Shown here: in pieces, positions 15,087-27,538 of the stretch
Layout: the number at the start of each line of letters is the position of its first letter
How positions within the stretch are numbered: position 1 is the stretch's first letter
Source: Amoeboaphelidium occidentale
Taxonomy: Eukaryota; Aphelidiomycota; Aphelidea
Direction of reading: 5' to 3'
Assembly: GCA_023515795.1 (NCBI GenBank)
Contig: JALGPX010000050.1
Coordinates: 12,653-43,215, forward strand
DNA: 30,563 nucleotides
The notes under the pieces: generated by a model
The model's input: only the letters and a program-made list of their open reading frames with translations
Told to the model about the DNA's origin: nothing
Databases searched by the model: none
Made by a program: the position numbers and the translations under genes

Positions 15087-16062
15087 ATGGCAGTTGGAAA
15101 GAATAAGGTGCGCTCACTGTTGCGATTTAAACTAAAACCAATGTAGAGACTTTCAAAGGGAAAGAAGGGAATAAAGAAGAAGACCGTTGATCCATTCACC
15201 AAGAAGGACTGGTACGACTTGAAGATTCCAGCAATCTTTGAGAAGAAGTCTTTGGGAAAGACTCTTGTCAACCGTTCCGCTGGTCTTAAAAACGCGGAAG
15301 ATTATTTGAAGGGACGCGTTGTCGAAATGTCTTTGGGTGATTTGAACTCTGATGAGTCTCAAGCTTTCCGTAAGATGCAGTTTGTTGTTGAGGAAGTTCA
15401 GGGCAACACTTGCTTGATGAACTTTTACGGAATGGACTTTACTTCTGACAAGATTAGAAGCATGGTCAAGAAATGGCAAAGTTTGATCGAGGCTCACGTC
15501 GATATTAAGGTAGGCTCTTTGTGTTGCATTTATGGGAATTATGATGCTTTCTTAAGTATTCACACTGTATGACGCGTAATCGCATGATTCTTTTATCACG
15601 CTGAATTCCCTCTTAAAGCTCCCCTGTTGTTAAAGATCAGAACTAATTTCATTCTTGTAGACCACTGATGGTTATTTGGTCAGATTGTTCTTGATTGCAT
15701 TTACCAAGCGTCGCCCTGATCAAGTGAGAAAGACCACTTATGCACAATCCAGTCAAATAAGACAAATTAGACAAAAGATGTTCCAGGTTGTCCAGAAGGA
15801 GACTCAAGGTGTTGATTTGAAGCAGCTCTTTGAGAAGTTGGTTCCTGAGGTTATTGGTAAGGAAGTCGAGAAGGTGTCTCAGGGAATTTATCCTTTACAG
15901 AATTCTTTTGTCAGAAAGGTCAAGATCTTGAAGGGACCAAAGCCTGACTTGGGTCGCTTATTGGAATTGGTTGAAGGTTCTGGTCCTTCTGTCGCTCCAG
16001 CTGCTGACGGTACTGTCGTCAAGACTGGTGATTTCAAAGAGCAGGTTTTTACCAGTGTTTAA
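15087..16062 (+). CDS. RPS1: 40S ribosomal protein eS1 (RPS3A/Rps1), 3 exons
   Basis: Small-subunit ribosomal protein. Exons are 15087-15107, 15147-15509 and 15661-16062 (261 aa). Exon 1 encodes only MAVGKNK, exactly the conserved N-terminus; exon 2 resumes [20 protein letters not shown] as in yeast Rps1. Further matches: [48 protein letters not shown] then [25 protein letters not shown] and [19 protein letters not shown]. Length is normal. Intron 1 is 39 nt. Intron 2 (15510-15660) is 151 nt, more than three times any other confidently placed intron in the window, and carries a snoRNA-like element. It probably shares a bidirectional promoter with MAGO. Confidence 0.97.
15534..15610 (+). ncRNA. 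Candidate box C/D snoRNA in eS1 intron 2
   Basis: 77 nt wholly inside the 151-nt intron. A 6-bp terminal stem GGGAAT/ATTCCC (15534-15539 with 15605-15610) brackets a C box ATGATGC (15541-15547; consensus RTGATGA, one mismatch) and a perfect D box CTGA (15601-15604). A weaker internal pair is possible: D' CTGT at 15565 and C' ATGACGC at 15569. The bases before box D (ATTCTTTTATCACG) would be the guide, predicting a target containing CGUGAUAAAAGAAU; I did not recognise this in rRNA from memory. C/D snoRNAs commonly sit in introns of ribosomal protein genes, and human RPS3A hosts SNORD73. The transcript direction matches the host. Antisense target and expression are unverified. Confidence 0.75.
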
Positions 16063-26452: not shown

Positions 26453-27538
26453 ATGTCGCTTTCACATCGCACTAAGAGACGATTTTCTGAAAGCGCTCTG
26501 ATGCTATTGGCTTTAGCTGTATTGTTATCTAAAGCCTCTGCTGCTCACGTTACGATGATGCTGGATCCGATATTTCCATGCCTGGAATCTTCTTATGAAT
26601 CGCTGATGTGCACGTTGCGCTCAATTGACTACTATTATTCCAATAAGTATTCAAAGCATCTTACTGCAAATGATTACCGTCTTATCATTAATACGACATT
26701 CCCGTATTGCGATATCTCCAAAGCAACCGAAGAACCCTTTAATGAATCTGTTCAATTTGGCTTGGAATCTTTCGATCTTTTGTCCATGTATGATATTTCT
26801 CTGATGTTTGAATGTGGCCTGAAGTTAAAGTATCCGATGACTGAGTCGTCCTTCTACAAGAAAATTCGGAAGGAATCTAGCCATGTTCCAAAGATCTATG
26901 GCAGCTACTCTGTGAACAAACTGGAACAGCGCGAAAAACGAAGGAAACGCGCACAGGCTGTGGGCTTAGAGGATATCGAATGGATCACGTTTGGTGAAGC
27001 TCAACAAGTTTATGAGAAGAAGGACTGGTTGGCTGCACACTTTTTCTCAAGTGCTGCTCAGATTTATGGGCCAACCGATCCAGCGATATCAAAGAACATG
27101 CTGAGTTCATTGAATGGTTTTGAATTTGTTAGAAAAGTGGCCGAAGGTAACGAAAAGTACGGCATAATGCTGGAAGATGACGCTTTGCCCGTGGTTGGAT
27201 TCCAAACGAAGTTTCGCGCTTTTGTTTCTAGCCTTCCTGAAGACACTGATCTTGCTTTCCTTGGTACATGTTTAGATATACACAATTGGTACTTGAAGAA
27301 TTGGTATGAGTCTGGTACTCCTTTCCTATTCGAATTCCCATCCACTCGTTGCTTCAATTCCGTTTTGATTTCTAAACAAGCAGCAAAGAAAATCCTGGAT
27401 ACGGGCGCATTGTTCTACCAATATACTCCAGTTGATCATTACTTCAACCACGCTATTGAATATCTTCAACTGAAAACTTACTGGGCAATGCCTCCACTGT
27501 TTTACGAATCATCAAAAGTCGCTGGTGTTATTGAATAG
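26453..27538 (+). CDS. Glycosyltransferase family 25-like protein, first copy
   Basis: Intronless. From Met26453 the protein is 361 aa and starts as a type II or secreted protein: short basic head (SHRTKRR) then a hydrophobic segment (ALMLLALAVLLSKASA). The frame also has an earlier ATG at 26375, adding 26 residues that would bury this segment, so the later start is preferred. GT25 features are the nucleotide-sugar half KIYGSYSVNKLEQREKRRKRA...VGLEDIEWI, the acidic motif IMLEDDALPV, and DLAFLGTCLDIHNW. GT25 enzymes transfer galactose or other sugars to lipooligosaccharide or hydroxylysine; the acceptor here is not readable. The paralogue at 28889 and the methyltransferase between them form a small cluster. 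Confidence 0.8.
   Translation: MSLSHRTKRRFSESALMLLALAVLLSKASAAHVTMMLDPIFPCLESSYESLMCTLRSIDYYYSNKYSKHLTANDYRLIINTTFPYCDISKATEEPFNESVQFGLESFDLLSMYDISLMFECGLKLKYPMTESSFYKKIRKESSHVPKIYGSYSVNKLEQREKRRKRAQAVGLEDIEWITFGEAQQVYEKKDWLAAHFFSSAAQIYGPTDPAISKNMLSSLNGFEFVRKVAEGNEKYGIMLEDDALPVVGFQTKFRAFVSSLPEDTDLAFLGTCLDIHNWYLKNWYESGTPFLFEFPSTRCFNSVLISKQAAKKILDTGALFYQYTPVDHYFNHAIEYLQLKTYWAMPPLFYESSKVAGVIE

Follow-up and report, generated by a model that had tools for sequence, protein, structure and literature searches.

A predicted box C/D small nucleolar RNA of the snR51/U41 type in an intron of the ribosomal protein gene eS1 of Amoeboaphelidium occidentale

The DNA analyzed here is a stretch of 30,563 nucleotides from Amoeboaphelidium occidentale (assembly GCA_023515795.1, contig JALGPX010000050.1, positions 12,653 to 43,215 of the forward strand), referred to below as the window. 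Within it, a 151-nt intron of the gene for ribosomal protein eS1 (RPS3A) in all likelihood encodes a box C/D small nucleolar RNA (snoRNA) equivalent to fungal snR51 and animal U41, predicted from its sequence to guide methylation of the large subunit (LSU) ribosomal RNA (rRNA) at the equivalent of yeast Um2729. A conserved function would thereby explain the length of the eS1 intron. The features are listed in Table 1.

The host gene is predicted to encode a continuous protein of 261 amino acids once the 151-nt intron and a 39-nt intron (15108-15146) are spliced out. The spliced protein is matched by Pfam Ribosomal_S3Ae (2.6e-75) and is collinear with an Amoeboaphelidium eS1 at 68% identity, gap-free across the intron junction. 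The intron call, which was also that of the initial annotation, is well supported by these comparisons. The check on intron length covered five introns of eS1 and the neighboring gene, which measure 39, 151, 38, 35, and 46 nt; among these five, the earlier description of the intron as the only long one holds. The sequence of the 151-nt intron is present in a single copy in the genome.

The element carries the features of the box C/D class, namely a C box (one mismatch), a D box, a terminal stem of six perfect Watson-Crick pairs joining the two, and a guide in register. The 77-nt element, its boxes, and its stem lie where the initial annotation had placed them, and its call of a box C/D snoRNA in the eS1 intron is supported by this architecture together with a 12-bp match of the D' guide. 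An internal unit of D' box, hairpin, and C' box is present in addition to what was first described. The guide had been taken to be the 14 nt before box D; the recognizable guide instead precedes box D'.

Table 1. Features of the eS1 gene and of the snoRNA element in its second intron (positions in the window)
Feature	Position	Strand	Basis or detail
eS1 (RPS3A) host gene, 3 exons	15087..16062	+	ATG at 15087 computed; TAA at 16060-16062 read by eye
snoRNA-hosting intron, 151 nt, GTAGGC...TTGTAG	15510..15660	+	CTAAT, branch-like, starts 18 nt from the 3' end
Predicted box C/D snoRNA, snR51/U41 type, 77 nt including stem	15534..15610	+	Boxes, stem, guide, snR51 model match
Terminal stem, 5' arm, GGGAAT	15534..15539	+	Fold and sequence reading
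Box C, ATGATGC	15541..15547	+	6/7 to RTGATGA, last position mismatched
D' guide GTATTCACACTG	15556..15567	+	12 Watson-Crick pairs with LSU rRNA CAGTGTGAATAC
Box D', ATGA	15569..15572	+	Position set by the D'+5 rule and the downstream hairpin
Hairpin GCG-TAAT-CGC, separating D' from C'	15574..15583	+	Present in the minimum-energy fold
Box C', ATGATTC	15584..15590	+	5/7 to RTGATGA
TTTTATCACG preceding box D, a spacer or second guide	15591..15600	+	Sequence reading
Box D, CTGA	15601..15604	+	Sequence reading
Terminal stem, 3' arm, ATTCCC	15605..15610	+	Fold and sequence reading

The D' guide is complementary over 12 bp to LSU rRNA printed for other eukaryotes. Its reverse complement, CAGTGTGAATAC, appears in the primer Cg28S_F2 of a lichen and yeast rDNA paper (PMC8527467) and, together with its upstream sequence, in an earthworm transcriptome contig (PMC5327576), which by our own reading appears to be LSU rRNA. 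The nucleotide A15564 is the fifth upstream of box D' and faces the U of the motif CAGU. The rule that the methylated base lies at D'+5 is stated in PMC5199042 and PMC2780460, and yeast Um2724 (snR67) and Um2729 (snR51) are five positions apart in Table 2 of PMC5199042. The spacing of that pair calls for a second U five positions earlier, and inside the duplex, by our reading of the printed segment, the U of CAGU is the only U that has one; for this reason it would be the Um2729 equivalent. In Neurospora, CD6 is listed for 26S-Um2687 with a D' guide and an 11/0 match, with snR51 and U41 as homologs (PMC2780460, Table 1). The element carries the D' guide by which snR51 is recognized, that for the Um2729 equivalent. 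No target was found for TTTTATCACG before box D; only rRNA fragments were compared, which does not amount to a negative test.

The snoRNA would be transcribed within the eS1 pre-mRNA. Splicing and debranching would release the intron, and exonuclease would trim it to the small nucleolar ribonucleoprotein at the C/D stem, these steps being those of the general pathway. Loaded with the usual C/D proteins, the D' guide would pair over 12 bp with the LSU segment CAGUGUGAAUAC and direct 2'-O-methylation of the U in CAGU, corresponding to yeast 25S Um2729. Transcription, processing, the target in the organism's own rRNA, and its methylation are predictions.

The top Rfam family for the element was snR51 (RF01214; 30.8 bits, E-value 0.029 in a scan of 97 bases), and the core TATTCACACTGTA is identical to the family consensus. 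When the snR51 model was run over the genome (11.3 Mb, 68 of 1429 candidates scored), the eS1 intron was the best of the three matches listed at E <= 10. The other two (L070 and L071) had 25.5 bits each, and scanning their loci with Rfam gave nothing over the cut-offs. A snR67 match at 26797-26872 of the window (20.9 bits, cut-off 55) falls within an open reading frame and was regarded as chance.

Several results weigh against the snR51 assignment. The score is below the Rfam gathering cut-off of 44, and snR51 was not reported for the window at that cut-off; the match had an E-value of 9.2 when the whole window was scanned against all 4227 families and was absent at E <= 5 in an 18.6-kb scan. 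SNORD64 (E 0.05) and SNORD60 (E 0.092) come near snR51 in the 97-base scan with 10 bits less, and this nearness of other C/D families in E-value in so short a scan lowered our confidence slightly. Box C is off consensus at its last base, a counterpart of the second target of yeast snR51, 18S Am100, is not recognizable in the element, and box D lies 56 nt from the 3' splice site, compared with 44 and 45 nt in the putative introns of two U14 genes of the same genome. The Am100 function of snR51 is paired with a separate snoRNA, U57, in a chicken table (PMC2653536), and 18S Am100 is not listed for Neurospora CD6 (PMC2780460, Table 1). The Rfam search alone would not prove snR51 identity, and the two U14 copies likewise fall just below their cut-off (62.2 and 59.7 against 64 bits) yet have E-values of 1e-10 or less. 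The element is called snR51-type on its guide and register, not as a member by the Rfam rule.

A real C/D snoRNA that is an orphan, or is guided mainly by TTTTATCACG before box D, with only an incidental likeness to snR51, would fit the box D guide region, which reads UUUUAUCACG here and UUUAAUGACU in the snR51 consensus and is unlike that of snR51 in the Rfam alignment; some C/D snoRNAs do have two guides (PMC2780460, Table 1). That is improbable, because the guide matches a known methylated site over 12 nt with the D' spacing in register, and because no other match to the snR51 model found in the genome scored as high as the eS1 element. Still less probable is that the C/D-like words arose by chance in an intron of exceptional length that yields no RNA product. 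The Rfam score below the cut-off and the whole-window E-value would suit such a chance origin, as would the single-strand fold, which barely beats shuffled sequences (z -1.30; 15 of 200 equally good), a statistic that neither supports nor refutes the identity as C/D RNA. The architecture argues the other way, since in a first-order Markov simulation with window composition (C box with at most one mismatch) 2.5e-4 of 40,000 sequences of 151 nt combined a C box and a D box with a stem of 6 bp or longer, and the expectation for the window is about 0.18 such sites per strand. When stems of 4 bp or longer were admitted, the window scan gave three sites: the eS1 element, with its 6-bp stem, and two whose stems have 4 bp; 2.05 are expected by chance per strand. 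The match of the guide to LSU rRNA is independent of the box and stem figure; about 0.007 twelve-base rRNA complements are expected by chance in 33 nt, under an assumed 5200 nt of rRNA and even base composition. The geometry also resembles that of other snoRNA introns of the genome: the 5' splice site lies 32 nt from the C-box core in eS1 and 31 and 33 nt from it in the putative U14 introns, whose lengths would be 163 and 166 nt against 151 nt.

The least probable alternative, and very remote, is that U73 (SNORD73) was inherited together with its host RPS3A from the ancestor of fungi and animals. Six Rfam matches were listed at E <= 10 (one same-clan overlap undisplayed), with snR51 first and without SNORD73, for which Rfam presumably includes a model, and the guide of the element is that of snR51/U41. 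What favors U73 is the host gene, as chicken U73b lies in RPS3A intron 5 according to PMC2653536. Both are intronic C/D snoRNAs in the RPS3A host family; U73b is another snoRNA and is listed as an orphan there. The initial annotation had raised an ancient host choice, and as inheritance of one snoRNA this is not supported: the chicken RPS3A snoRNA differs from the snR51/U41 type in eS1, and therefore the shared host does not mean common descent of one snoRNA. The same host gene and the same snoRNA are two easily confused matters, which are kept apart here.

The snR51/U41-type element can be compared with several known snoRNAs. It shares with yeast snR51 the C/D boxes, the D' guide core, and the predicted 25S target; it differs in being shorter and in lying in an intron of a protein gene, as well as in the unrecognizable Am100 box D guide and the score below the family cut-off. 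Neurospora crassa CD6 has a similar length (76 nt), a D' guide, and the same snR51/U41 site, and, as part of a snoRNA cluster, lies in an exon (PMC2780460). Human U41 (SNORD41) is listed as a homolog for that site (PMC2780460, Table 1). According to PMC3596301, snR51 is usually found in the non-coding cluster III, snR41-snR70-snR51, of Ascomycota, Basidiomycota, and Rhizopus. The element here is solitary in the eS1 intron, unlike that location, and no snoRNA over the cut-off was found in the window. With SNORD43 as a stand-in for snR70, a genome search returned 10 weak hits, the strongest at 20.9 bits, and C/D architecture with a stem of 5 bp or more was absent from all eight loci fetched. A U24 search gave seven weak matches, of which the best (26.5 bits) looks coding by eye and was set aside.

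Other C/D snoRNAs of the genome were also recorded. Two tandem U14 genes (C1:22242-22567) each lie between splice-site-like ends; no coding gene was recognized around them, and no dedicated search for one was made. A weak SNORD49 match (22.9 bits) lies downstream of them (L087 1110-1181). A pattern combining the C and D boxes with a branch site had 30 matches in the genome and 16 in a reversed control, so most are chance. After filtering, five of the 30 rows, at four distinct places, retained stems of 5 bp or longer, with donor-like and acceptor-like sequence nearby; one further row had a 4-bp stem and neither. At L098 (1501-1582), a snoR1 match (SNORD60 clan, snR48-like; 32.3 bits, cut-off 49) with an 8-bp terminal stem directly precedes an exon of uS3 (RPS3). 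At L120 (1501-1560, reverse complement), a SNORD31-like sequence (37.8 bits, cut-off 40) lies between two HSP70 reading frames, the upstream one identified by a Pfam scan and the downstream one by our own reading. On such findings, hosting a single C/D snoRNA per intron seems usual in this genome. The other two of the four places lie in arrays. The array at L114 (1128-2129) includes snR75 over the cut-off (47.6 bits, cut-off 40), SNORD27 (40, cut-off 52) and Afu_300 (33.2, cut-off 40) below it, and a weak snR78 match (26.7 bits, E 2.1). It resembles fungal cluster I, and the cluster may be old in fungi. A second array, at L118, has SNORD36 over the cut-off (32 bits, cut-off 30) and weaker matches. 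Equivalences such as snR48-U60 and snR74-U27 are those of PMC2780460 (Table 1).

The organism's own target sequence was sought in the assembly. No match was obtained for 5.8S rRNA (39 of 450 candidates scored) or for an 18S and an LSU pattern with up to 3 mismatches, and CAGTGTGAATAC followed by GAAAG within 8 nt occurred once in the genome, on the other strand of the snoRNA gene itself. The assembly probably lacks the rDNA. LSU patterns searched in viral and prokaryote contigs gave 0, 0, 6, and 1 matches. The target words were absent from L075 (scanned and read) and L077 (read), which look like divergent or broken eukaryotic LSU sequences, and the other five matches have 23-67 nt of upstream sequence, too short to reach the site. 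In viral contigs, six pattern matches to eS1 were found, none of them confirmed, and 65 stretches matched a snoRNA pattern of 17 bases that contains a variable gap; by our own estimate for such a pattern they were regarded as chance.

The element is very probably an RNA of a familiar class whose host gene was not the expected one, the biology being otherwise ordinary. Introns of ribosome-related genes are known as snoRNA hosts in fungi: according to PMC8476143, RPL7 and NOG2 have such introns and snoRNA genes move. The snR39/snR59 genes in RPL7 introns are likewise C/D methylation guides in a ribosomal protein gene (same source), and their guide, target, and host all differ from those of the eS1 element. 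Either snR51 may have moved into eS1, or later fungi may have moved it out. Tentatively, in what is probably an early-branching lineage, several guides may be carried one per intron of housekeeping genes (the snR51-type in eS1, the snR48/U60-like at uS3, and the SNORD31-like in HSP70), with a cluster-I-like set kept in an array, and hosting by protein genes, as in animals, might be ancestral for some guides, which clusters would have taken up in later fungi, or have arisen in parallel. If this is true, the pair of snR51 and eS1 would be a host-gene marker for methylation-guide genes moving between introns in fungi, one able to decide between an ancestral state and a parallel move.
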